A program made the position numbers and the translations under genes. The notes below the pieces were generated by a model. The model was not told the origin of the DNA and ran no database searches. It saw nothing but the letters and a program-made list of their open reading frames with translations. Positions 3,224-63,696 of a stretch of 64,000 nt of DNA are shown in pieces. The DNA is from Streptomyces sp. NBC_01216 (lineage in GTDB: Bacteria > Actinomycetota > Actinomycetes > Streptomycetales > Streptomycetaceae). The DNA is taken from the NCBI RefSeq assembly GCF_035994945.1, contig NZ_CP108678.1:124001-188000 (forward strand), written 5' to 3'. Numbering within the stretch: position 1 is the first letter of the stretch; every line of letters starts with the position of its first letter.

Positions 3224-6200
3224 ATGAGCACCGCCAGCAACAGACTGCGCTTCGTGAGCGCACCGCCCGCCTTGCTGCGGGCCGTCTGCCATCCGAGCGG
3301 GCGCTTTGCCCTGCCGCCGGTCCCTTCCGCGAGCGGCACACCGGACGAGGCCCAGGCCTGGATCCAGCAGGCGTGGGTGCTGACGGAGCTCCGCGACATG
3401 GTCCAGCACGCCAGCCCCGACCTGGCCCGGAGCCTCGACGCTCTCACCGCACAGGGCGGGGTCGATCCGGATCGGATCCGCGGCATGCTGCTGGCACTCG
3501 CGGCCTACTGCCAGCGCGCCGTGAACCGCCCTGTGCCCTTCGGGCTGTTTACAGGGGTGCTGGAGGCCAGTTTCGGCACCGCGCCGGTGGCCCAGTGGGG
3601 CGAGGAGCACCAGGCCGTGGCGCGGGCGGGATCGCAGTGGCTCACGGACATCATTGGCCGGTTGGAAGCGATGCCGCGCGTTCGTGAGCGGCTGTGGCTG
3701 GTGTCGTCGAATGTGGCTGCGCGCCGCGGCGGCCGGCTGGTCGTCCCCTGGCAGCAGCGGCGCCTGGACGTGAAGGGGACCGAGGTGCACGAGGTCTCGT
3801 TGCGTCTGGAGCCGGAGGTACGGGTGCTGACCGACCTCGCCGCCTCCCCCGTCCCCTACAGCGATCTGCTCCACAAGATCCGGGCCGAGTTCCCCGAGCA
3901 CTCCGAGTCGGCCGTGAGGGGACTGCTCGACGAGCTGGTCGCCCGGCGAGTGCTGATCACCTCTCTGCAGCCATCGGCTATGGAGATCGACGCCCTGGGG
4001 TACGTGCTCCGCGAGCTCGCCCGCGTGGACGCTGACCGCCTCCCCGAGGCCGCCGATCTCGTGGGCGCGCTGGCCAGCATCCACCGGCTCATGGCCGCCC
4101 ACAACCAGACTGCCGGCCAGGCCCAAGGCCCCCTGCGAGCCCAGATCCGGGAACGGATGGCCCCGCACGTACCAGGCGACGACCAACCCGTCGCGCTCGA
4201 CGTCCTGCTGGACGGGACGGTCGTCCTGCCTCACGAGGTGGCGCGAGAGGCGGAGAAGGCCGCCGAGATGCTCGCCCGGATCAGCCCGGAACCCGACGGA
4301 CACGAGGCCTGGACGGATTACTGCCGGCGGTTCCTGGACCACTACGGCCCCGGCATGCTGGTGCCCCTGCTCGAGCTGACCGGCCCCACCGGGTTAGGAC
4401 TGCCGGACGGCTACCACACCACACCAACGGCCGGCACCGCCTGGCACCGCATGTGCCCGCGCGATGCCGTCCTCCTGGCCACCGCCCAGCACGCGACGCT
4501 CACCGGGGAAGACATCGTCCTCGACGACGAGCTGGCCGAACGGATCGCGGTCGGCACGCCGGACGCCACGGACCTGCCCCGGCACCTGGAACTCCTCTTC
4601 GAAGTCCACAGCCCCTCCCTAGACGCCCTCACCTCCGGCACCTTCACGCTCGCCGTCCGCGCCGCCTCGCGAGGGTGGGGCTATTTGAGCGGGGGACGAT
4701 TCGCCGCGCTGCTCGCGACCCGGCCCTCCAGCCCCCTGCTGGACGAGCTGACCAACCGGCCGACCAGCACGGACGGCGCGCTGACCGCCCAGCTGTCCTT
4801 CCCGGGCCTTGCCCCCTCCGGAGTCCACATCACCCGCACCCCGCGGCTGATGCCCGCTGTCATCGCGCTGTCGGAGTACCGGGAGCCGGCCGACGACCTG
4901 ATCGAGCTGTCCGACCTGGCAGTCATGTGCGACGGGCAGGCCCTCCACCTCGTCTCTCGCTCTCGCCAGCAGGTCATCGAGGCAGGCACCCCGCACCCGC
5001 TCCAGATCGAGTGCCAGACCCCGGCCCTCGTCCGCTTCCTGGACGAGCTCGTCCGCGGCCAGGCCGTACGGATGACCGGCCCCGTGGGGACGCTGCGCCC
5101 CATGCACTGGGGAGCCGCCCGTCACCTGCCGGTCCTGCCCCGCGTCGTCACGGGGCGGAGCGTGCTGAGCCCCGCGATGTGGCGACTCAACTCCTGGGAC
5201 CTGCCCGGCCCCCGGGCCTCGATGGCACAGTGGGAGGACGCCATGGAGATCCTCCGCGAGCAACGCGGGATCCCCGACCGGGTGCTCGCGGAGCGCTTCG
5301 ACCAGCGTCTGTCCCTCGACCTCACCCGCCCCGGCGACCTCGCGCTGCTCCGCGAGCAGACCTCCGACCAGCAGTTCGGCCCCCTCCACCTCGTCGAGGC
5401 TCCCGCGCGCGATGCCCACGGCTGGGCCGGACGTCCAGTCGAGGTGGTCACGCTCCTGCGCGCGGCCGGCCCGCCCCGGCCCGCGCCGGACCTCAGCATG
5501 GTCATCGGCCTCTGCCCCCGGGCGCACGCCATCGGCGCCTCCCGGTACGTCCAGGCACAGCTTCACGGACCGATCCAGGGCCGGAGGGATCTGCTCGCCG
5601 ACCACCTGCCCGCGCTCCTGGCGGACCTTGGCGACGTGGCGTGGTGGGTTCGCCCGCAGAATGGGCTCGCCCCGTACCTGGAGCTGACCGTGCGGGTCGA
5701 CGACCCGGAGACGACCGGGGCAGCCGCAGGCCACATCGGTGCCTGGGCCGCCCCGCTCATGGGGTCCGGTGCGCTGCGCGACCTTATCCTCGTGCCCTAC
5801 CGCCCGCACCCCGGCCGGTGGGGCGACGGACCGCTGCTGGAGGCCGCGGAGGCAGTGATGGCGGCGGACTCCGCCGTCAGCGTCCACCAGGCGGCGGTGT
5901 CCCCTGGGGCCGGAGCCGACCTCCGAGCGGAGGCGGTCGTCGGGCTTCTCGGCATCGTGGAGGGATTCCTCGGAGGCCGGGAAGCCGGACACACCTGGTG
6001 GGTCGGCCGGCCGAAGGACAGTACGGGCGGCCGCCTTCCGCGGGACGTCCAGCAGGACATCGGCGGCCTGGTGGAAGCCGGGCCCGACAGCGCGGCGGTA
6101 CCGTACTGGGCCGCACGGCGGGACGCGCTCGCCGCCTACGCCGAGCTCGTCCGCGTCGACGACAGCATCGACGCCGACCGCGTGCTGGACGAACTCCTCC

Positions 6201-6328
6201 ACGAACACTGTCTGCGGACGTCCGGGCCGGACTCCCGTTTCGAGGTCATCGCCCGGCGCCTGGCCCGCGCGCACGCCATGACCGCCTTGGCGACGAAGTC
6301 GCGTCCCACGAAGGCCCCGCCGCCGTAG
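3224..6328 (+). CDS. LanB-type lantibiotic dehydratase, stand-alone
   Basis: The 1034-aa protein has the length and order of full LanB enzymes, which glutamylate Ser/Thr using Glu-tRNA and then eliminate glutamate to give dehydroamino acids. RPVPFGLFTGV at residues 102-112 matches the conserved R-x-[TV]-PFGLF segment of the N-terminal domain. The C-terminal part aligns by position with the elimination/thiopeptide-type domain, but where the other dehydratase here has FIRFRDP..HLRLR, this one reads WWVRPQNGLAPYLELTVRV, losing the usual charged residues. No cyclase or obvious precursor is adjacent. ATG follows GGGAGAGGC. It may act in trans, be a glutamylation-only enzyme, or be degenerate. Confidence 0.88.
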   Translation: MSTASNRLRFVSAPPALLRAVCHPSGRFALPPVPSASGTPDEAQAWIQQAWVLTELRDMVQHASPDLARSLDALTAQGGVDPDRIRGMLLALAAYCQRAVNRPVPFGLFTGVLEASFGTAPVAQWGEEHQAVARAGSQWLTDIIGRLEAMPRVRERLWLVSSNVAARRGGRLVVPWQQRRLDVKGTEVHEVSLRLEPEVRVLTDLAASPVPYSDLLHKIRAEFPEHSESAVRGLLDELVARRVLITSLQPSAMEIDALGYVLRELARVDADRLPEAADLVGALASIHRLMAAHNQTAGQAQGPLRAQIRERMAPHVPGDDQPVALDVLLDGTVVLPHEVAREAEKAAEMLARISPEPDGHEAWTDYCRRFLDHYGPGMLVPLLELTGPTGLGLPDGYHTTPTAGTAWHRMCPRDAVLLATAQHATLTGEDIVLDDELAERIAVGTPDATDLPRHLELLFEVHSPSLDALTSGTFTLAVRAASRGWGYLSGGRFAALLATRPSSPLLDELTNRPTSTDGALTAQLSFPGLAPSGVHITRTPRLMPAVIALSEYREPADDLIELSDLAVMCDGQALHLVSRSRQQVIEAGTPHPLQIECQTPALVRFLDELVRGQAVRMTGPVGTLRPMHWGAARHLPVLPRVVTGRSVLSPAMWRLNSWDLPGPRASMAQWEDAMEILREQRGIPDRVLAERFDQRLSLDLTRPGDLALLREQTSDQQFGPLHLVEAPARDAHGWAGRPVEVVTLLRAAGPPRPAPDLSMVIGLCPRAHAIGASRYVQAQLHGPIQGRRDLLADHLPALLADLGDVAWWVRPQNGLAPYLELTVRVDDPETTGAAAGHIGAWAAPLMGSGALRDLILVPYRPHPGRWGDGPLLEAAEAVMAADSAVSVHQAAVSPGAGADLRAEAVVGLLGIVEGFLGGREAGHTWWVGRPKDSTGGRLPRDVQQDIGGLVEAGPDSAAVPYWAARRDALAAYAELVRVDDSIDADRVLDELLHEHCLRTSGPDSRFEVIARRLARAHAMTALATKSRPTKAPPP

Positions 6329-19661: not shown

Positions 19662-19835
19662 ATGACGCGCAACATCGCGCAGAGCACCACCCAGGTCCAG
19701 GAGCCCGTGGCCCAGGAGGACGGCTTCACCCTGAACGTCGGCCTGCTGGAGGTCTCCGACGCCGCCGGGCTGACCAACCTGACCGACGACAACTGCGGCA
19801 CCACCTGCGGCGCCTGCACCACCAACGTCGCCTGA
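19662..19835 (+). CDS. FxLD-family class I lanthipeptide precursor peptide
   Basis: 57 aa with AAGGAG 5 nt upstream of the ATG. The leader contains GFTLNVGLLEVSD, the family-defining F-x-L-D box, here F22-T-L-N25 with Asn replacing Asp. The core region after about residue 36 is rich in modifiable residues: TNLTDDNCGTTC and GACTTNVA, with Cys45, Cys49 and Cys52 and several Thr, allowing up to three (methyl)lanthionine rings. The DDN segment supplies Asp for the isoaspartyl-type methyltransferase encoded at 24284. It is followed by a strong hairpin and then LanB, LanC and the methyltransferase. Confidence 0.9.
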   Translation: MTRNIAQSTTQVQEPVAQEDGFTLNVGLLEVSDAAGLTNLTDDNCGTTCGACTTNVA

Positions 19836-19855
19836 CCTGGCCCATCCGGCCTGCT

Positions 19856-19894
19856 GGCCGGGGCCGCCACACCGATGGTGCGGCGGCCCCGGCC
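19856..19894 (+). terminator. hairpin between precursor and dehydratase (attenuator-like)
   Basis: GGCCGGGGCCGC at 19856-19867 pairs with GCGGCCCCGGCC at 19883-19894, with an inner CAC/GTG pairing. There is no U-tract, as usual in Streptomyces. It lies 20 bp after the precursor stop and 29 bp before the LanB start, suiting partial termination that keeps precursor mRNA in excess, or 3-prime end stabilisation. Confidence 0.7.
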
Positions 19895-19923
19895 GCCTTC
19901 CCACCCGGCTCAAGGAGGCATTC

Positions 19924-22900
19924 GTGACTGCACCACCGGCATTCCGGGCCGGCGCGACCGCCCTCGTGCGCGCCGTCGCTCGACCGGCCCAGGTCGAGGC
20001 TCCCTTCCCGGACTTCGACGACCGCCCCCTCCCCGACGCCGGTCAGGAAGACATCACCGCCAGCCGTCTCGCGTGGGTGCGCGCCGTCTGGAGCAACGCC
20101 GCCCTGGTCGAGGCCGTGCGGCACGCCAGCCCGGACCTGGGAGCCCAGGTCAAGACTCTGTGCGAATCCCCGGCTCCCTCCGGGCGCGACGTGCGGCGCG
20201 TCGGGCTCTCCCTGGTCCGTTACCTGCTTCGGGCAGGGCACCGGGCCACGCCGTTCGGTCTGTTCGCCGGCGTGACCACGGCCGCCTTCGGTGACAGGAC
20301 GGCCGCCGTCTGGGGCGAGGACCATGTGGTTGTCGCGCGGGCCGGCGCTGAGTGGCTGTCCCGGCTGGTCGAGCAACTGGAGGGGAGCGGAGAGCTGCTG
20401 CCGTGGCTGTCCGTCATGGTGAACAGCACGGCCTTCGTACGGGACGGGAACCTGATCGTCCCGTACCAGGACGACGGGCGACGGGCGGTGGAGGCGTCGG
20501 TCGAACTGTCCGCCCCGGTGCGCAGTGTCCTTGCCGCGGCGGGGACACCGATCCGGTTCGAGGACCTGGCCGGGAAGCTGGGGGCGGAGTTTCCCGGCGT
20601 GGTGCCCGAGCGGGTCCACGGACTGCTGGCAGGGCTGATCCGGCGTCGCGTGCTGATCACAAACCTCCAGGCGCCGGCCACCGAGACCGACGCCCTCGGC
20701 TACGTCCTCGCCCAGCTCGACGCGGCCCGGGCCGGCGCCCTCGTCCCGCTCGCCGGAACGGTCAGAGAGCTCCGCGCCATCCGTGCGGGACTGCACCAGT
20801 GCGCCTCGGCGGATGACCGGGAGGCGGTGGCCGCCCGGATGCGGCGACTGGTGCCGGGCCTTCACCGCCACCCCTTGGCGCTCGACCTCCGCCTCGATGC
20901 ACACCTCCGGCTCCCCGGCGAAGTGGCGCGCGAGGTCGAGCGGGCCGCCACCATCCTCACCCGGCTCAGTGCCCGCCCGTACGGGGGCCGCGGGCTGGGC
21001 GAGTATCACCAGCGGTTCTATGAGCGGTACGGCATCGGCACGATGGTGCCCCTCCTCGACGTCGTCGCCGACAGCGGCATCGGCTACCCCGACGGCTACC
21101 CCGGGGCCCCGGCCGGCGCCCACCGACGGCGGATCTCCCCCCGGGACGACGCCCTGGTCCGCCTCGCCCAGACCGCCGCGCTCGACGGGCACGACGAGAT
21201 CGTGCTCACCGACGAGATGGTGGACGCGCTGGACGTGGGACCGAAGGAACCGCGGGTGCCGCCGCACCTGGAGCTCGGCGTGCGGCTGCACGCGGCGAGC
21301 ATCGACGAGATACAGCGCGGCCGGTTCACCGTGGAGGTCACAAGCGTGTCCCGTGGCGCCGGGGTGAGCACGGGCCGCTTCGCCAGCGTCCTGGATCCCG
21401 CCGCGCGGGAGACGCTGTGCGCGGAGCTGGCCGACCTGCCCACCGCCGATTTCGGCACCGACCCCGCCCAGCTCTCCTTCCCTCCGCTACTGCCCGACAC
21501 CGCGCACGTCACCCGAACCCCCCGCATCCTGCCGCTGCTGATCAGCCTGCAAGAGCACCGGCCGTCCGCCCCAGACGTGCTCACTCCTGCCGACCTCGCG
21601 GTGGCCTGCGACGGCCGCCGGATGTACCTGGCCGCCCCGGGTCTCGGCCGTCGCATCGAGGCCGTGGGCATGCACGCGCTCAACCTCACCGAGCACACCC
21701 CGCCGCTGGCCCGGCTGCTCACCGAGCTCTCGCGCGGCCAGTGCGCCCAGGTGACCACCTTCGACTGGGGAGTTGCCGCGACGGCGCCGTTCCTCCCGCG
21801 CCTGCGCTACGGCCGCATCGTGCTCTCCCCGGCCCGGTGGCGGGTGGAAGCGGCCGACCTGCCCGGCCGGGACCGGCCCACGGCAGAGTGGAACCTCGCG
21901 CTCTCCGAGTGGCGCATCCGCCGACGCCTGCCGCAGCATGTGCAGCTCGTCCAGGGCGACCGGCTACTCCCCCTCGACCTCGACCAGGCCGCCCCCCGCA
22001 GTCTGCTGCGCCGGCAGCTCGACCGCGCCTCCTTTGTGGTGCTCACCGAGGCGCCGGGGCCGCAGGCGTACGGCTGGAGCCAGGGCCGGGCCCACGACAT
22101 CATCGTCCCCCTCAAGGCGACCCGGTCCGCCGAGTGGCCGCCGCTGCCCCAGCCGGCCCCGGCCCGCACCCTCGCGCGGGCCCAGACGCAGATGCCGGGC
22201 ATGTCCTCGGTGCTGCTGGCCGCCCTGTACGGGGACCTGCGCCGCCAGGACGCCGTGCTGACCCGGCACCTCCCCGACCTCCTTGGCCGGCTCGGCTCTC
22301 CCCCGTGGTGGTTCATCCGCTTCCGCGACCCCGACCAGCACCTTCGCCTGCGCATCGCTCTGGCGGACCCCGACAGCTTCGCGGACGCCGCCCGCACGGT
22401 GAGCGCGTGGGCCGACGAACTCCGCACGGACGGGCTGCTGGCGGACCTGCGCTACCCCACCTCCTACCGGGAGATGGGCCGCTGGGGCTCCGGGAGTGCG
22501 TGGGACGCCGCCGAGGAGGTGTTCCGGGCCGACTCGCGGGCCGTCGTCACCCAGCTCTCCCAGCCCCGGCGCCCGCAGCAGCGCACACTGGTGGCCGCCC
22601 ACACCTTCGCGATCACCTCGGCGTTCCTCGGCAGCCCGCAGGCCGGCGCGCGCTGGCTGATCGACCACATCCCGCACCGGGCGCCGAAGCCGATCCCAAG
22701 GCCGCAGTTCACCGAGGCCGTCCGCCTGGCCGACCCGCGCGACAACTGGGCTGCACTCCGTGCGGTCCCCGGCGGCGAGGCGATCGCCGCGGGCTGGGCC
22801 GACCGTAGCGCCGCGCTTGCCGCCTACCGCGAGCACCTGCCGGGCCCGGACACCGAAGGCATCGCCCTGGACGACGTCCTGACCTCCCTGCTGCACACCC

Positions 22901-23007
22901 ACTTCGTACGGCACGTCGCGGTCAACTTCCCCGAGGAGGAGATCTGCCTCCACCTCGCCCGCGCCGCCGCCCTGGCCTTCAACGCCCGCCCCGGGAGGAC
23001 CCGGTGA
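19924..23007 (+). CDS. lanB: LanB-type lanthipeptide dehydratase of the FxLD cluster
   Basis: A 1027-aa full-length dehydratase starting at a GTG preceded by AAGGAGG. RATPFGLFAGV at residues 107-117 is the N-terminal glutamylation-domain motif. The C-terminal elimination domain has the intact pattern WWFIRFRDPDQHLRLRI near residues 795-811. It should use Glu-tRNA to activate and eliminate Thr/Ser in the precursor at 19662. Its stop overlaps the LanC start (GGTGA), so the modification enzymes are made together. It is paralogous to the stand-alone dehydratase at 3224, whose equivalent elimination motif is degraded. Confidence 0.95.
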   Translation: MTAPPAFRAGATALVRAVARPAQVEAPFPDFDDRPLPDAGQEDITASRLAWVRAVWSNAALVEAVRHASPDLGAQVKTLCESPAPSGRDVRRVGLSLVRYLLRAGHRATPFGLFAGVTTAAFGDRTAAVWGEDHVVVARAGAEWLSRLVEQLEGSGELLPWLSVMVNSTAFVRDGNLIVPYQDDGRRAVEASVELSAPVRSVLAAAGTPIRFEDLAGKLGAEFPGVVPERVHGLLAGLIRRRVLITNLQAPATETDALGYVLAQLDAARAGALVPLAGTVRELRAIRAGLHQCASADDREAVAARMRRLVPGLHRHPLALDLRLDAHLRLPGEVAREVERAATILTRLSARPYGGRGLGEYHQRFYERYGIGTMVPLLDVVADSGIGYPDGYPGAPAGAHRRRISPRDDALVRLAQTAALDGHDEIVLTDEMVDALDVGPKEPRVPPHLELGVRLHAASIDEIQRGRFTVEVTSVSRGAGVSTGRFASVLDPAARETLCAELADLPTADFGTDPAQLSFPPLLPDTAHVTRTPRILPLLISLQEHRPSAPDVLTPADLAVACDGRRMYLAAPGLGRRIEAVGMHALNLTEHTPPLARLLTELSRGQCAQVTTFDWGVAATAPFLPRLRYGRIVLSPARWRVEAADLPGRDRPTAEWNLALSEWRIRRRLPQHVQLVQGDRLLPLDLDQAAPRSLLRRQLDRASFVVLTEAPGPQAYGWSQGRAHDIIVPLKATRSAEWPPLPQPAPARTLARAQTQMPGMSSVLLAALYGDLRRQDAVLTRHLPDLLGRLGSPPWWFIRFRDPDQHLRLRIALADPDSFADAARTVSAWADELRTDGLLADLRYPTSYREMGRWGSGSAWDAAEEVFRADSRAVVTQLSQPRRPQQRTLVAAHTFAITSAFLGSPQAGARWLIDHIPHRAPKPIPRPQFTEAVRLADPRDNWAALRAVPGGEAIAAGWADRSAALAAYREHLPGPDTEGIALDDVLTSLLHTHFVRHVAVNFPEEEICLHLARAAALAFNARPGRTR

Positions 23008-24269
23008 ACCACGACACCGCCCTCGGCCTGTCCGCGGGCATCGCCGACCGGCTCGCCCACCCCGACACCGCGCCCGCCACGGTGAGCACAGATACCGTCC
23101 GGCAGCACCTTGCTCTCGGGCCGATCGGCATCGCTCTGCTGCACATCGAGCGGGCCGCAGCCGGCCTCGGGCCCTGGCAGCGCGCCCACGACTGGCTCGC
23201 GGCCGCCACCCGCCGGCCGTTCACCAGCGGCGCCGACAGCCACCCCTTCTACGGCGCCCCCGCGCTCGCGCACGTCCTGGCCTGCGCCGCCGAAGGTCTC
23301 CCCGGCGCCTACGCACGCGACCTCGCCCTGCTGGACCGGCAGGTCCTCGACGACGTCCAACGCCGCCTGGACGCCGCGCACCGCCGGATCGACACCGGGC
23401 AGCTCCCGGTGCTCGCCGAGTTCGACGCGATCCGCGGGTTGACCGGCTTCGGCGGCTACCTCCTGCGCCGCGACCCGGCGGGCCCGGCCCTGCGATCGGT
23501 TCTCGACTACTGCGTACGCCTGACCGAACCGATCACCCATGAAGGGGACACCCTGCCGGGGTGGTGGACGCTCACCGGGCCTTCCGGGCGGCCGGACGAC
23601 CGTTTCCCCGGCGGCCACGGCAACTCCGGCATGGCCCACGGCATCGGCTCCGTCCTGGCCCTGCTCGCGCTCTGCGCCCGCCGCGGCACCGCGGTCAGTG
23701 GCCACCGCCAGGCTCTGCGCACCATCCTGGCCTGGCTCGACCGCTGGGAGACGACCAGCGCGCAGGACCGGACCTGGCCGTACTGGGTCATCCGCGACGA
23801 GCTGCGCACCGGTCGGCTCGCGCCCGCCGGTCCCCGGCGTCCCTCGTGGTGTTACGGCACCGCCGGCGTGGCGCGCGCCCAGCAGCTTGCCGCCCTCGCG
23901 CTCGGCGATCCCGCCCGCCGAGCGGTCGCCGAGAACGCCCTCCTGGACGCTCTCACCGACCCCGAGCAGTTGTGGGCCACCACGGACTTTGGCCTGTGCC
24001 ACGGCTTTGCCGGGCTCGCTCACCTCACCGTCCGTACCGCCGCCGACGCCGCGCCCGAGACTGCGAACCGGCTCCGTGCCGTTCTGCCCGACCTGCTGGC
24101 CACCCTGCTGCCGCTCGGCTCGAAACCCGAGGACGCGGGCGCGGCACTCGTCGATGGCCCCGGCGGCGCCGGGCTCCTTGACGGCGCCGCCGGTATCGGG
24201 CTCGGCCTCCTCGCCGCTTCCGGTACCGCCCCGCCCCGGACCCGCTGGGACTCCTTCCTGCTCGTCTGA
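23004..24269 (+). CDS. lanC: LanC-type lanthionine cyclase
   Basis: 421 aa from GTG, overlapping lanB. The LanC zinc site is complete: WCYG with Cys283, and LCHGFAG with Cys332-His333. GHGNSGMAHG is the preceding conserved Gly/His-rich motif. LanC enzymes add precursor cysteines to dehydroamino acids to form (methyl)lanthionine rings. It is cytoplasmic and probably complexed with LanB at the precursor leader. 14 bp separate it from the methyltransferase gene. Confidence 0.95.
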   Translation: MNHDTALGLSAGIADRLAHPDTAPATVSTDTVRQHLALGPIGIALLHIERAAAGLGPWQRAHDWLAAATRRPFTSGADSHPFYGAPALAHVLACAAEGLPGAYARDLALLDRQVLDDVQRRLDAAHRRIDTGQLPVLAEFDAIRGLTGFGGYLLRRDPAGPALRSVLDYCVRLTEPITHEGDTLPGWWTLTGPSGRPDDRFPGGHGNSGMAHGIGSVLALLALCARRGTAVSGHRQALRTILAWLDRWETTSAQDRTWPYWVIRDELRTGRLAPAGPRRPSWCYGTAGVARAQQLAALALGDPARRAVAENALLDALTDPEQLWATTDFGLCHGFAGLAHLTVRTAADAAPETANRLRAVLPDLLATLLPLGSKPEDAGAALVDGPGGAGLLDGAAGIGLGLLAASGTAPPRTRWDSFLLV

Positions 24270-24283
24270 CTTCCGAGAGGACC

Positions 24284-26362
24284 TTGATGCCCGCCGACCA
24301 CTGGCAGCAGCACCAGATCACCTTCCCCGACCGGCAGACCGCGCGCGCCGCCATCGCCGACCGTCTCGCCCCTGTACTGCGCGAGGCGGAAGCCGACCGG
24401 CAGCTCAGCGGCTGGTGGTTCATGAACAAGCAGCCCTGGCCGCTGCGGTACCTGGCCGACCACCCCGCTCCGGCCGTATCGGCGCTGCTGGACGACCTGG
24501 TCGCGGACGGCGTCGCGTCCTCCTGGACGACCGGGATCTACGAGCCGGAGACGGATACCTTCGGTGGCCGGCCCGCCATGGCGGCCGCGCACGACCTCTT
24601 CCACGAGGACAGCCGCCACCTCCTCGCCTACCAGGTAGGCCCCGGCCACCTGGACCGTCCGGAGATGGCCGTCCTGCTGCTGAGCAGCATGATGCGCGCC
24701 GCGAACCTCGACTGGTTCGAGCAGGGCGACGTGTGGAGCAAGGCCGCCGCCCTGCGCCCCGGCACCCCGGTTCCCGGCTTGTCCGAGACCCTGCTGCCGG
24801 CGATGCGGAAGCTGATGACCACCGAGGCACGCAGCCTGTGCCGGGCGGGCGGGCCGCTGGACGGCCACACGCAGTGGATCGCCGCCTTCGAACGGGCGGG
24901 CACGGCCCTCGCCCACCTCGCCGCGCGGGGCGAACTGACCCGCGGTCTGCGCGCCGTCATCACCCACCACGTGATCTTCCACGCCAACCGGGCCGGCCTG
25001 CCGGCCGCAGACCAGCACACCCTGTTCCACATCGCACGAGAGGCAGTCATGGGATCGAGTGACAACACCGCGTCCACCAAGGCCAACACCCCCGCCGCCG
25101 ATAGCGTCAGCGCGGTGAACACCGACACGCTCACCACACCCGAAGCCGACGCCGAGCGCCTCCGCAACGCGCTGGTCGACCAGATCAAGACCGAAGGCCA
25201 CGCCCGCACCCCCGCCGTCGAGGATGCCCTGCGCACCGTCCCGAGGCACCGGTTCGTCCCCGACGCGCCGCTCACCGACGCCTACGCCAACGCGCCGGTG
25301 AACATCAAGTACGACACCGACGGCACCTCGATCTCCTGCGCCTCCCAGCCCAGCGTCGTCGCCCTCATGCTCGACCAGCTCCAGGCCCAGCCCGGCGAGC
25401 GCATCCTCGAACTCGGTGCCGGCACCGGCTACAACGCTGCCCTGATCGGCCACCTCGTCGGCCCCGACGGACACGTCACCACCATCGACGTCGACGACGA
25501 CCTCGTCGAAGGCGCCCGCGCCCACCTCGCCGACACCGGCTTCACCAACGTCCAGGCACTCACTCGCGACGGCGCCCTCGGCCACGCCGAAGGCGCACCC
25601 TACGACCGGATCATCGCCACCGTCGGCGCACACGGCATCCCGCCCGCCTGGCTCGAACAGCTCGCCCCTGGCGGCCGGCTCGTCACCCCTCAGCGCCTCA
25701 AGGGCAGCGTCTCGCGCTCCATCGTCTACCAAGAGCGCGACGGCCGCTGGATCTCGTCCGGCTCGCAGATGAACACCTTCATGCCGCTGCGGCGCGGCAT
25801 CGCCGACGACGACCGCCGCGTCATCCCCCTCTCCACGCAGAGCACCGTGCGCCTCCAGGCTCCCGCCGGGCAACAGATCGACGCCGAAGCCCTCGCCGGC
25901 GTCCTGGAACAGCCGCGGACCGAGCAGTGGACCGGGATGAAGGTCCGCGCCATGGAGAGCCCGGAGTGGATGGAGCTCTTCGTCTCCTGCTCGCTGCCCT
26001 CCGGCCTGATCCGCATGCTGTTCCCCCAGACCGCCAAGGGCACCGTGCTCACCGAGGACCCCTACCCCTCCTCCACGGCCGCCGTGGACAAGGGCGCGCT
26101 CACCTACCTCACCCGGCGCCTGCTGGACGAGAAGACACCCGAGGGCGGCAAGCTCTGGGAGTTCGGCGTCGTCGGCCATGGCCCCGGCAGCGAGGAACTC
26201 GCTTCCCAGGTCGCCGACGCCATCCGCACCTGGGACCGCGAGTACCGCGGCCGGGAAGCCGCCTTCGAGCTCCTGCCGCTCGACGCGCCCCCCGTCGACC
26301 AGCCACCCGGCACGTTCGTCCTCGACACCCCGCTCAACCGCGTCCTCGTCACCTGGCAGTAG
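24284..26362 (+). CDS. FxLD-system methyltransferase (thiopeptide-type domain fused to isoaspartyl O-methyltransferase)
   Basis: 692 aa with two parts. Residues 1 to about 245 (HWQQHQITFPDRQTARAAI, then RPAMAAAHDLFHEDSRHLLAY) resemble the thiopeptide-type bacteriocin biosynthesis domain. Residues about 290-692 are a protein-L-isoaspartate methyltransferase: VPRHRFVPDAPLTDAY, then the SAM-binding ILELGAGTGYNAALIGHLVG near residue 375. A C-terminal extension is shared with the fusion at 38338. In related clusters such enzymes methylate Asp side chains, leading to aspartimide/isoAsp. The likely target is Asp42/Asp43 of the FxLD peptide. Confidence 0.92.
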   Translation: MMPADHWQQHQITFPDRQTARAAIADRLAPVLREAEADRQLSGWWFMNKQPWPLRYLADHPAPAVSALLDDLVADGVASSWTTGIYEPETDTFGGRPAMAAAHDLFHEDSRHLLAYQVGPGHLDRPEMAVLLLSSMMRAANLDWFEQGDVWSKAAALRPGTPVPGLSETLLPAMRKLMTTEARSLCRAGGPLDGHTQWIAAFERAGTALAHLAARGELTRGLRAVITHHVIFHANRAGLPAADQHTLFHIAREAVMGSSDNTASTKANTPAADSVSAVNTDTLTTPEADAERLRNALVDQIKTEGHARTPAVEDALRTVPRHRFVPDAPLTDAYANAPVNIKYDTDGTSISCASQPSVVALMLDQLQAQPGERILELGAGTGYNAALIGHLVGPDGHVTTIDVDDDLVEGARAHLADTGFTNVQALTRDGALGHAEGAPYDRIIATVGAHGIPPAWLEQLAPGGRLVTPQRLKGSVSRSIVYQERDGRWISSGSQMNTFMPLRRGIADDDRRVIPLSTQSTVRLQAPAGQQIDAEALAGVLEQPRTEQWTGMKVRAMESPEWMELFVSCSLPSGLIRMLFPQTAKGTVLTEDPYPSSTAAVDKGALTYLTRRLLDEKTPEGGKLWEFGVVGHGPGSEELASQVADAIRTWDREYRGREAAFELLPLDAPPVDQPPGTFVLDTPLNRVLVTWQ

Positions 26363-57727: not shown

Positions 57728-58363
57728 TCAGCTGCCGCCGCTGAGCGGGATCGTCGCGACGTGGTCCCACGTGATCGTCTTGGCCTGCGCGTCCGCGGTG
57801 ACGTCCACGAGGTGAACGGCGTCCACCCGCATCGGGGCGTGTCCCGGGCGAACTCCGTTGCGCAGCTTCCTCTGCACGTGGTCGGAGTCGCATTCCTCGG
57901 CCGCGTATCCGAGCGTGAGGTGCGGGACCTTGGCGGGATAGCCCGTCGCGTTGGGCCCGCGCATCGTCTGGATCGCGGCGCGGACGGTGGTGTGGAGGTC
58001 GTTGAGGGGCTCGTCGGGATGGACGTCGGCGATCACTCCGGTCGCGTACGACTCAAGCGATCCGATCATGATGTCGAACGGCTCGACGTCCGCGAGGCGC
58101 TTGCCCAGCTCCGCTACGAGGGCGTCGCGTTCGGCCAGTGTGATCTCTGCTCCCACGCGGTCGGTGATCTGGTCGACGGTGATGTGAAGCCAGCGGTCCT
58201 CCACGCAGGTGATCGGAAACTCCCGCAAGACCGCCCGTCCCCGGGCGACAAGCGCCGCCAGCTCGCGGTCCTGATCGTGTGGGGTGAGATACACGTGGAG
58301 CAGGGTCTCGCCCTCTGGCCACACGTCCTGGGCATGCTGGAACACGAACGGCTTCATGACCAT
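57728..58363 (-). CDS. 2H phosphoesterase (2'-5' RNA ligase family)
   Basis: 211 aa from ATG 58363 (GAGAGG upstream); ATG 58357 is possible. The two His motifs are RWLHITVDQI and VPHLTLGYA, both H-x-T, about 100 residues apart. GETLLHVYLTPHDQDREL is the N-terminal strand. The C-terminus ends AQAKTITWDHVATIPLSGG, which matches the fragment at 59481. These enzymes act on cyclic phosphates or 2'-5' linkages. It faces away from the AmcA-like precursor, with about 130 bp between. Confidence 0.82.
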   Translation of the reverse strand: MVMKPFVFQHAQDVWPEGETLLHVYLTPHDQDRELAALVARGRAVLREFPITCVEDRWLHITVDQITDRVGAEITLAERDALVAELGKRLADVEPFDIMIGSLESYATGVIADVHPDEPLNDLHTTVRAAIQTMRGPNATGYPAKVPHLTLGYAAEECDSDHVQRKLRNGVRPGHAPMRVDAVHLVDVTADAQAKTITWDHVATIPLSGGS

Positions 58364-58495
58364 GCACCGTAGCCTCTCGCCCCTGAACGCGCGCCGCTTG
58401 TGGCCGAGTTGGACCACCGTGACCAGGGCCTGCCGGGTCTCCCGGCAGGCCCTGGTCACGGCCCTGTCCACGCTCGCAACCAAGGAGGCTGTTGT

Positions 58496-58688
58496 ATGAA
58501 GATCCTGGACCGACTCGCCACATCCGGCACCCCCGTCGTGATGGAGTTGATAGCCACGCACGACGCCCCGCCCCCCGGTGATCGTTGAAGGAGCGTGGGA
58601 CAACCGGCCCACGTGGGACAACTGGGCGAAGAACCCGGCTTCCTTCGACAACCGCCCGACCTGGGACAACTGGAACAAGAGGAAGTGA
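58496..58688 (+). CDS. amcA: AmcA-like multiple-cyclophane (triceptide) precursor, frame broken at a C-run
   Basis: ATG 58496 has a strong AAGGAGG site. The leader frame reads MKILDRLATSGTPVV then MELIATHDAPP, and stops at 58588. The core lies one frame away: VEGAWDNRPTWDNWAKN then PASFDNRPTWDNWNKRK, ending TGA 58686-58688. Deleting one base from the six C at 58571-58576 joins them to 63 residues. The core has four aromatic-Asp-Asn motifs (WDN, WDN, FDN, WDN), matching the three-residue cyclophanes installed by radical SAM/SPASM enzymes in AmcA-type RiPPs. No radical SAM gene is in the window. Confidence 0.75.
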
Positions 58689-58738
58689 GTCGTCCCCGCT
58701 GCTGGCACGCCCCTGGGCGTGCCAGCAGCGGGGACGAC
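58689..58738 (+). terminator. 24-bp-stem hairpin after the AmcA-like precursor
   Basis: GTCGTCCCCGCTGCTGGCAC plus GCCC at 58689-58712 pairs perfectly with its complement at 58715-58738, two bases apart in the centre, directly after the core stop codon. It suits a strong terminator or a stabiliser that keeps precursor transcript abundant relative to downstream genes. Confidence 0.8.
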
Positions 58739-58764: not shown

Positions 58765-59451
58765 ATGGACACCCGCACGATCCGCCGTACGAGCGTCACG
58801 CTCCCTGCCCTGAACGAGCCGGGCCTCTACCTCTCCAGCGTCACCTCGCTGGAGGGCGGCCGTGGCCGGGTGGCGGAGTTCCACTACGCCGACGCCGACC
58901 TGCGGGACCTCAACCTGGCCGACACCCACCTGATGGACGGGCGGATCACCGGCCTCAAGGCCCAGCGCGCCCGGCTGGAGAAGCTCCGCGTCGACTCCGT
59001 GGAGTTCACCGGCTGCGACCTGGCCTCCCTGCAGTGGACCGACAGCAAGATCACCCGGACTGTCTTCCGCGACTGCAAGCTCATGGGCGCCGCACTCGAA
59101 GACGTCACGCTCGACAACGTCCTGTTCGAAAACTGCAAGATCGACTACAGCACCCTCACCCGCGTCCGGGCCATTGGCCCCGTGATCTTGGCCAAGTGCT
59201 CGCTGCGCGAAGCCACCTTCGCCGCCGCTGACCTCGCCGCCGCCCTGATCAACGACTGCGATCTGCGCCTGACCGAGTTCGACGGCGGGAAGTACTGCGG
59301 CCTGGACCTCCGGGGCAATGACCTCTCCCAGCTCTGCGGCCTCGCCTCGCTCAAGCAGGTCGTCATCGACCGCGCCCAGACGCTCCAGCTGGCGGAGGCC
59401 CTCGCCGTCGAGCTCGACGTCACCTTCGGTGAAGACCTCGACGACAAGTAG
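58765..59451 (+). CDS. pentapeptide-repeat protein
   Basis: 228 aa from ATG 58765. Runs of A(D/N)LxX-like repeats: FHYADADLRDLNLADTHLMD, FTGCDLASLQWTDSKITRTV and LFENCKIDYSTLTRVRAIGP, with C-terminal CDLRLTEFDGGKYCGLDLRG. The repeats form a right-handed quadrilateral beta-helix. Such proteins can mimic DNA (MfpA, Qnr) or act in immunity to RiPPs. Lying after the AmcA-like precursor and its hairpin, it may provide immunity; this is inference. Confidence 0.85.
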   Translation: MDTRTIRRTSVTLPALNEPGLYLSSVTSLEGGRGRVAEFHYADADLRDLNLADTHLMDGRITGLKAQRARLEKLRVDSVEFTGCDLASLQWTDSKITRTVFRDCKLMGAALEDVTLDNVLFENCKIDYSTLTRVRAIGPVILAKCSLREATFAAADLAAALINDCDLRLTEFDGGKYCGLDLRGNDLSQLCGLASLKQVVIDRAQTLQLAEALAVELDVTFGEDLDDK

Positions 59452-59480: not shown

Positions 59481-59720
59481 ATGGGCCCGCGACTCGTATT
59501 CGACACGTTCGATGACATACGAGGCCGGTGCGACACCGCACCGGCCCGGCAGGCCGGCAGCGAGCTCGGCTACGACCACGGCGCCATCGTCCCCAGCGAC
59601 GACTGGGTACCCCTCACCACCGACCCGGTGAACAAGACCATCACCTGGGAGCGCGTCGCCCCGCCGGTCCCCCTCGCGGGCCGCTCCCGAGCCCTGGAAG
59701 GAAGCACCGAGAGCCCGTGA
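59481..59720 (+). pseudogene. fragment of a 2H phosphoesterase-like gene
   Basis: A 79-codon ORF. Its segment [20 protein letters not shown] matches the end of the 2H protein at 57728 (AQAKTITWDHVATIPLSGG), and the preceding [18 protein letters not shown] aligns with that protein's last strands. No H-x-T motif remains, so only the C-terminal quarter survives, with an unrelated short N-terminus. The stop overlaps the Nudix gene start. It may still be translated. Confidence 0.45.
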
Positions 59721-60880
59721 GCGCCCCCAGCGACGTGCAACCCGTCTACACCGGGGAGGAGCCTCCCCAGATCTACACCGCGAGCCTCTACCTGGCCAGC
59801 GCCCCACTCGATCCGGAGTCCTGCCGGAACGTCCTCCGCGAGGCGGTGCTCCAGTGGCGACAGCCCGGCACACTCGTGGTGCTGCTTCCCCACCCCCGCG
59901 GTGACGCCTCCCACCCGGACACCGCACGCCGACTCGCCTGGGAACGGACCCAGCGCGACCGCGCCGACGAGATCATCCACTGGCACCCCCATCCCGGCCC
60001 CGCGGCCGAAGCCTGGCCGGGTGATGACCTGGACGACGGCCGCTCCGTCCTCGGCTGCCCCGACAGCACGGCCGACGCCCGGCGCCTCCGTCTACTCGCC
60101 GACGATCTCAAGGTCCCCACCGCCGAGACCCTGCACCGGGCCGTCGCCCTCGCCCTGGCCCGCATCGGCCCCGGCGCCCCTCGCGCCGCCGGACAGCGCG
60201 ATGTTCCACTCCTGCTGTGGCGAACCCGCTCCTTCCGGGCCTGGCTCGCCGCCCAGGAGGACGCCGGCAACACTCTGCTCGGCGGCCGGACCTCTTGGAC
60301 CTTCCGCGTCGGCCCCGACCGCTCCCACGTCCTGCTGTGGGCGTACGCCGCCCGCATCCACGTCGCGGCCGAGGATCGCGTGAAGGACAACGAAGTTGTC
60401 CTGGGACGGCCGGACCTCACCAGTGTCGTCGCCTACCGGCCCGCGCCCCGCTGGCAGGACACCGAGGTCGTGCTCGTCCGCGAGTTCCGCTCCCCCGCCC
60501 GCACCCCGGATGCCTACATCCGCGAAGTCCCCGGAGGATCCAGCGCCAAGCCCGGTGACCCCAGGCTGGTGGCTGCTGCCGAGTTCACCGAGGAGACCGG
60601 CCTGCCCCTTTCCCCGGCGCGGCTCCACCTCGTCGGCACCCGCCAGGCGGCTGGCACCCTGTCCGCCCACACCCAGACCGTGTACGCCGTCGAACTCAGC
60701 GCGGGCGAGCTCGAGCAGCTGCGGGCCGACACGATCCGCCACGGCAACGCTGAGGAGAGCGAGCACACCTACGTGGAAGTCGCCCGTCTCGCCGGCATCC
60801 TGCGCCCGGACGGCCCCCATGCCGTGGACTGGGCGACGCTGGCCGTCATCCTCCAAGCCGTACAGCCGCTGATGCGGTAG
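59717..60880 (+). CDS. nucleoside 2-deoxyribosyltransferase-like domain fused to Nudix hydrolase
   Basis: 387 aa from GTG 59717, overlapping the fragment's stop. Residues 1-150: [29 protein letters not shown] and [10 protein letters not shown], resembling the nucleoside 2-deoxyribosyltransferase-type fold. The Nudix domain (about 215-385) reads [20 protein letters not shown] then [10 protein letters not shown]; the first Glu of the box is replaced and the R-E pair reads E-F, so it is divergent. The fused pair suggests acting on a nucleoside or nucleotide derivative. Confidence 0.75.
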
Positions 60881-62425: not shown

Positions 62426-62562
62426 TCCAGCACCATACCTGCCGACTGGCCTGCCCCATGGCGTACGTTCGTCAGTTGGTGACCTGGTGTACCCACGTGT
62501 TCGCCCTGAGTCGGGGCGGGGTTGCGTTCGGGTCCTTTCGTGCCCGAGAAGGGGGCTCATTG

Positions 62563-63696
62563 ATGGTCGTTGACGCTGCACTTGGTGCCACGGGCCCTGC
62601 TGGCGGTCTCTCATCACCGAAGAGACGGAGCGCTTTGGTACTTGAGGGGTGGCGGTTACAGGTGGTGGCACCGTCGAACAGTGTTCTCGGGTCCGTCGTG
62701 GGGATGCTGGTTCCGGCGTGTTCCGTGGAGGCGTCGGGCGTGGGTGCGCAGTGGAGGCTCGAGGTCGAGTGGGGTGTGCTGCCGCGGGGGGTCGAGCATG
62801 CGTCTGGTGCCGGAGGGCTGGTTCTGGAGCTTCCGTACGGAGGTCGCCGCTTGGCGGTGGTCGGGATGGCGGAGGGCGTGATGAGGCTGGTGGCGTGCTA
62901 TCGGCCCGGGGCGCCGCCAGCCGTGATGGAGGTCGATGCTGTCGCGGGTGTGACTCGGTTGGTCGTGTCGCCTGGTGACACGGTGGAGCTGCGGTGGGCG
63001 GACTGGCTGGCCCGGGTCTTCTTCGCCTCCCGGCTGCTGGCGTCAGGGTGGCGGATGCTCCACGCTTCGGCGGTTGAAGTGGAGGGGAAAGCGCTAGTGT
63101 TCCTGGCCGGGCGGTGTGGGGGGAAGTCCACGCTCGCCCACCGTGCGGTGCGGGAGCTGGGTGGCCGGTTCCTGGCCGACGATCTGGTTCTGATCGGTCC
63201 GGGCGGCGTGGTGGTGGGCTGGCCGACCCGTGTCGCTGTGCCTGCGTCGCTGGTAGGGAGTGCCACCGGCGGGCGGCGTGACCGTTCGGTGGTGGCCGGG
63301 GTGGTGCGTGAACGGATTTTGTTCACTCCGATCGAGCACCGCGCTGCCCTTGGGATCTCGTACTCGCCGCCCGTCCGGCTCGGTGCAGTGGTGGTTGTCG
63401 ACGGTTCCGGCGCGGCCGGGGAGGGCGTTCGGGTGCGCGAGGCGGGGGACGGTGTGCTGGAGCTGGCGGTGGTCGGGGCGGCGGACATCACGGAGCAGAT
63501 GGTGTACGTGAGTGACCCGCTGGGCGTGATGGGGGGAGCGCGGCTGGCGGACCAGTCGGCCGGGATGGGGCCTGTGGAGGGGTTGTTCTCCGGAGTCCCC
63601 GCCGCCGTGCTGCGGGTAGCGGTGGAGCAACTGCCGACGGCGCCGGTGTGGCGGGCTCTGGAAGGCGTTGTCCCCGGGGTCGGCCGATGCCGGTGA
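62563..63696 (+). CDS. HPr kinase-like P-loop protein
   Basis: 377 aa from ATG 62563, with AAGGGGG upstream; ATG 62458 would add 35 residues. The typical pairing is present: LHASAVEVEGKALVFLAG then GRCGGKSTLAHRAV (Walker A GRCGGKS), and FLADDLVLIG downstream as Walker B. HPr-kinase-like proteins with this layout occur near RiPP loci, where some phosphorylate the peptide. Codon use is richer in G-ending and T-containing codons than the genes to the left, suggesting different ancestry. Confidence 0.75.
   Translation: MVVDAALGATGPAGGLSSPKRRSALVLEGWRLQVVAPSNSVLGSVVGMLVPACSVEASGVGAQWRLEVEWGVLPRGVEHASGAGGLVLELPYGGRRLAVVGMAEGVMRLVACYRPGAPPAVMEVDAVAGVTRLVVSPGDTVELRWADWLARVFFASRLLASGWRMLHASAVEVEGKALVFLAGRCGGKSTLAHRAVRELGGRFLADDLVLIGPGGVVVGWPTRVAVPASLVGSATGGRRDRSVVAGVVRERILFTPIEHRAALGISYSPPVRLGAVVVVDGSGAAGEGVRVREAGDGVLELAVVGAADITEQMVYVSDPLGVMGGARLADQSAGMGPVEGLFSGVPAAVLRVAVEQLPTAPVWRALEGVVPGVGRCR

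Follow-up and report, generated by a model that had tools for sequence, protein, structure and literature searches.

A broken AmcA gene in a probably decayed AmcA/AmcB-type RiPP cassette on a plasmid-like contig of Streptomyces sp. NBC_01216

AmcA is defined in NCBIfam as a "multiple cyclophane-containing RiPP" (NF041721, cut-off 40 bits), and its partner AmcB as a cyclophane-forming radical SAM peptide maturase (NF041718, cut-off 425 bits). A literature search for AmcA or AmcB with radical SAM by name found no paper on them. Described systems with which they can be compared are the triceptides (XncB, OscB, MscB and similar), for which passages of a published account describe Trp-/Phe-X-Asn motifs that are cross-linked between residues i and i+2 (PMC11002830). 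AmcB, a radical SAM/SPASM enzyme, would be expected to read the AmcA leader of intact relatives and to cross-link residues 1 and 3 of each aromatic-Asp-Asn motif. In S. bluensis and its kin, the genes follow the order AmcB, AmcA, a pentapeptide-repeat protein and a 241-aa protein, and in S. bluensis a 501-aa gene and a NUDIX gene lie upstream of AmcB. An intact relative AmcB scores 510.6 bits on NF041718, and four intact relatives of AmcA score 71-78 bits on NF041721 (77.0 bits for S. bluensis AmcA, to whose gene that of genome G352 is identical). The 241-aa fourth protein (L129:5717-6439) is conserved, with strongly conserved stretches such as HDGST; it matched no Pfam or NCBIfam family, and its structure, predicted from a 9-sequence alignment, has a mean pLDDT of 40.8.

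The window analysed here is a 64-kb stretch (bases 124001-188000) of a 338-kb plasmid-like contig, in a 7.7-Mb genome of four contigs with 99.97% completeness. The locus within it is read here as a broken member of this known RiPP family inside a decayed cassette (Table 1). A preliminary description had noted an AmcA-like leader and core in different frames, parted by six C, and re-reading of the sequence bears this out exactly: frame 1 from 58496 reads MKILDRLATSGTPVVMELIATHDAPPPGDR up to the stop TGA at 58586-58588, and the adjoining frame reads ...VIVEGAWDNRPTWDNWAKNPASFDNRPTWDNWNKRK up to the stop TGA at 58686-58688. The four aromatic-Asp-Asn motifs described at the same time are found in the core frame, in the order WDN, WDN, FDN, WDN; all follow the aromatic-X-Asn pattern of three residues and include the Trp- or Phe-X-Asn motifs of triceptides, from which the locus differs in that its genome has no maturase of the AmcB kind. 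The proposed family identity likewise holds in a profile search, since the core piece alone, aligned to model positions 21-54 only, exceeds the NF041721 cut-off (50.5 against 40 bits). Core motifs, motif spacing and 27 leader residues identical to those of S. bluensis AmcA are shared with the family; unlike its members, this gene has its leader and core out of frame, and the window has no AmcB.

The 36-aa core piece matches 22 of 392 genus genomes, its own included, and in all 21 others the precursor N-terminus and the core lie in one open frame, which is not the case here; thus, the peptide of the split gene is not a product of chance. With the AmcA model, damaged copies were found in two further genomes, G044 (40.5 bits, positions 2-38) and G389 (23.3 bits, positions 38-53, below the cut-off). 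A search of the S. bluensis precursor against 5.8 billion proteins returned 168 relatives, of which 120 were listed. Among AmcA-family entries, P0071, P0076 and P0087 keep the core with the leader replaced or absent. In viral contigs, 57 nt of the window's core DNA found no exact match. Elsewhere in the window, a set of class I lanthipeptide genes at 19662-26362 includes an FxLD-system methyltransferase (TIGR04364, 448 bits), a likely 57-aa precursor (19662-19835), a dehydratase (19924-23007) and a protein weakly matching the C-terminal part of lanthipeptide synthetases (23004-24269). Another large protein, at 3224-6328, has a domain for thiopeptide-type bacteriocin biosynthesis (TIGR03891, 79.0 bits), and a weak match to HprK-related kinase A (25.6 bits against a cut-off of 200) lies at 62458-63696.

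Table 1. Features of the AmcA locus and its flanks (window coordinates).
Feature	Position	Strand	Basis or detail
Flank, 2'-5' RNA ligase family protein	57728..58357	-	PF13563, 58.3 bits
Deletion junction	58412..58413	.	blastn vs S. bluensis L046
AmcB 3' relic	58413..58493	+	residues 355-381 of 382-aa query, 85% identical (tblastn)
First perfect inverted repeat	58417..58461	.	21-bp arms, 3-nt loop
AmcA leader frame	58496..58588	+	30 codons + TGA
Six-C run, point of frame separation	58571..58576	+	
AmcA core frame, from GTG	58578..58688	+	NF041721 positions 21-54, 50.5 bits
Second perfect inverted repeat, directly 3' of core stop	58689..58738	.	23-bp arms, 4-nt loop
Pentapeptide-repeat protein, intact, 228 aa	58765..59451	+	PF13599, 77.1 bits
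Fourth-gene relic	59481..59636	+	residues 1-52 of 241 aa, 77% identical
Flank, homologue of NUDIX-hydrolase-annotated gene on NBC_01456 plasmid	59717..60880	+	no Pfam match

The surroundings of the split gene, which the preliminary description did not cover, comprise an AmcB tail, a truncated downstream gene, an intact pentapeptide-repeat gene and, on other plasmids, differently decayed cassettes. By blastn, the window at 58315-58412 corresponds to S. bluensis L046 4389-4486 and the match then jumps to L046 7797, a loss of about 3.3 kb. As a result, only about the last 27 codons of AmcB survive upstream of AmcA, and in contrast to NF041718 proteins the catalytic body is missing. Downstream, the open frame of the fourth-gene relic continues through unrelated sequence to 59720. 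The RNA-ligase flank is syntenic with the NBC_01456 plasmid at 86.5% nucleotide identity. The radical SAM partner had been reported as absent from the window, and a search for it across the genome had been proposed; for AmcB, which adjoins AmcA in relatives, the absence extends to the whole genome (99.97% complete), where no protein passes the cut-off and the best reaches 129.8 bits against 425. The main contig of this genome holds 23 other radical SAM domains.

Among the four explanations first offered for the frame split, a dead gene fits best, given the loss of the maturase gene, and the AmcA gene here is most likely dead; a programmed frameshift and a phase switch are unsupported, and a sequencing error is possible. 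We therefore regard the locus as probably a decayed AmcA/AmcB-type cassette on a plasmid-like contig, with the maturase deleted and the leader split from the core. In the history that we propose, the deletion of about 3.3 kb would have removed AmcB and two upstream genes, a second truncation would have removed most of the fourth gene, and a one-base change in the length of the C-run would have parted leader from core, in an order that is itself conjectural. A precursor left without its maturase would have no known use, and the strain would presumably make no modified peptide; the pentapeptide-repeat gene has kept its open frame and might still be expressed. Two observations speak against decay: the core retains all four motifs, and the relic core on the NBC_01456 plasmid is in frame although that plasmid has no AmcB.

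Comparison with S. bluensis bears on the age and the reality of the frame break. The 1213-bp alignment has 62 mismatches and two single-base gaps; one of these lies at the C-run, the sole gap in coding sequence, and the other is intergenic. The first 80 nt of the leader are identical (80/80) up to the C-run, and over 108 nt the core shows three nonsynonymous and no synonymous differences. Given this identity of the leader, any decay of the precursor would be recent, unless the frame break reflects a base-calling error. The latter reading, in which the C-run length is an error of base calling or assembly and AmcA is really in frame, still without AmcB, is unlikely yet deserves serious consideration: the break lies in a homopolymer, directly after an unchanged leader, and is the sole coding indel of the aligned block. 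Against it, of the 23 other runs of at least six C or G in the window, 12 are crossed without loss of frame, judged by third-codon-position GC being highest on each side of the run; 11 are uninformative, four lying outside called genes, four near gene borders and three giving an unclear signal. Three of the 12 lie inside one full-length dehydratase domain match. The high completeness of the genome argues in the same direction, as does the finding that none of the 120 listed homologues, out of 168, combines in frame the two core residues by which the window's allele is recognised. Whether the break is decay or a base-calling error, a cross-linked product is not to be expected after the loss of AmcB.

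The remaining explanations would make the split functional. At 11 related loci, in all of which leader and core share a frame, the C-run at the site reaches five in six loci, four in five and six in none; thus, neither a programmed frameshift nor a phase switch is supported. Slippage at proline codons is a known phenomenon, and a +1 shift at CCC-CCC-G is what would be needed here to join leader to core. However, such programmed frameshifting is extremely improbable, as the frame is uninterrupted in the 21 genus relatives, the related loci offer four or five C and an intact frame rather than a conserved shift site, and there is no AmcB to use the product. That the C-run acts as a phase-variable on/off switch is almost certainly wrong. 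A mononucleotide run does lie at the leader-core border, and more than half of the related loci carry five C there, but in the others the run is broken to four C, the maturase is gone, and with 23 other comparable C or G runs in the window such a length is not special here. A very improbable reading is split translation by design, with the core made as a leaderless peptide by coupled reinitiation at a GTG that overlaps the leader frame. The GTG at 58578 sits 8 nt ahead of the leader TGA, and database entry P0087 is a 36-aa core-only AmcA; however, no ribosome-binding site is seen before the GTG, and the arrangement is absent from the 21 genus relatives. Thus, real decay most likely accounts for the frame split, with a base-calling error as the alternative, and not a new mechanism.

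A perfect inverted repeat with a short loop lies on either side of the relic, and among such repeats (loops of 3-12 nt) these two are the longest in the 64-kb window; 4 nt separate the first of them from the deletion junction. Among ten relatives checked, none has perfect arms of at least 9 bp at the site of the first repeat, and at the site of the second the arms are 12-15 bp in eight and shorter than 9 bp in two. The left arm of the first repeat differs from S. bluensis at five positions, each of which creates pairing, and the predicted folding energy of the repeat is -51.0 kcal/mol in the window against -27.2 kcal/mol in S. bluensis. Correction of arms by template switching is described for imperfect palindromes in two papers (PMC7202029, PMC8604942), and the resemblance of the arm pattern here suggests a similar process. 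It may be that the deletion, the repeats and the change in the C-run share one error-prone replication history.

A differently decayed form of the same cassette is present on two Streptomyces plasmids, NZ_CP109456 and NZ_CP109462, whose sequences agree completely over the 2.8 kb compared. They share both flanks with the window, the RNA ligase and, at the opposite end, the NUDIX-annotated gene, and a search of both plasmids gave no AmcB match. Their breakpoints are unlike the window's: the AmcA core is joined in frame to the beginning of the 501-aa gene from upstream, which places MKSVRAGLRAFEARAGEHDV ahead of the core, so that the annotated amcA of NBC_01456 (L127:7951-8130, NZ_CP109456) is a chimera of the two. 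The plasmids keep only residues 176-240 of the 241-aa protein, and the pentapeptide-repeat gene is whole on both. In a tree of 32 repeat proteins, the plasmid protein does not group with the window's, whose sister is the S. bluensis protein (support 96/85). The simplest reading is that AmcB was lost separately in the window and on the plasmids, with recombination as a possible alternative.

To place these losses in the genus, the families were counted across the 392 genomes, with AmcB scored on at most five candidates per genome. AmcA passes its cut-off in 23 genomes, of which 18 also have AmcB over cut-off and five do not (G000, G027, G037, G044 and G339), counts in which draft assemblies may hide genes. 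Pieces of AmcB are kept in G027 and G037, and the repeat gene is near full length in G000 and G037 and damaged in G027, G044 and G339. At E <= 1e-30, 32 genomes have the pentapeptide-repeat protein, 18 with AmcB over cut-off and 14 without. Nine of these 14 align over at least about 218 residues (G000, G037, G061, G155, G201, G230, G275, G331 and G389), and the other five are partial or split (G027, G044, G185, G257 and G387). On the above-mentioned tree of 32 repeat proteins, 12 of them from loci without a whole AmcB, at least nine changes of AmcB state are needed, which may also mean transfer of the repeat gene alone. The idea that AmcB, AmcA and the repeat protein form a fixed set was rejected, as eight of the 26 genomes with AmcB over cut-off match neither the AmcA model nor, at E <= 1e-30, the repeat protein (G016, G023, G052, G074, G296, G305, G380 and G385).

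The PENTAPEPTIDE-repeat gene at 58765-59451, that is, the pentapeptide-repeat gene, is the only whole gene of the window's cassette, and its protein is 94% identical to that of S. bluensis over 228/228 residues. Pentapeptide-repeat proteins can mediate resistance to gyrase poisons (PMC7897471), and passages on the cystobactamid cluster, in which AmcA is not mentioned, describe pentapeptide-repeat genes as serving self-protection (PMC9231227). These parallels make an immunity role plausible. The window protein belongs to the same repeat family as the gyrase-related MfpA and Qnr, and the solved chains closest to it in sequence include 2w7z and MfpA 6zt4; in contrast to those proteins, it falls far below the Qnr/MfpA cut-offs, at 37.9 of 240 and 32 of 360 bits. 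A literature search on pentapeptide repeats with cyclophane and RiPP found no paper on such a role. It is a doubtful, speculative proposal that the repeat protein might be the immunity protein of the cassette, acting as MfpA and Qnr do on gyrase or on another target of the matured peptide. The signal of selection on the gene is weak and gives no clear backing to immunity: of its private changes in the window, five are synonymous and six nonsynonymous (P = 0.125 against neutrality), counts that are few and noisy, and some sequences with intact AmcB also show a nonsynonymous excess among their private changes. Relative to S. bluensis, omega is 0.33 for the window, 0.13-0.28 for 11 sequences with intact AmcB, and 0.19-0.36 for seven others that lack a whole AmcB, including two identical ones.

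In summary, the odd frame split is explained as decay or a base-calling error and not as a new expression mechanism, and the strain can be recognised as a probable non-producer that should not be picked for chemistry. Moreover, the repeated loss of AmcB, with the pentapeptide-repeat gene often left open, points to a testable role for this cassette gene. If the immunity reading were true, it would predict a target for AmcA peptides as well as a route to resistance, and loss of AmcB with an open repeat gene would mark producers turned resistant bystanders.
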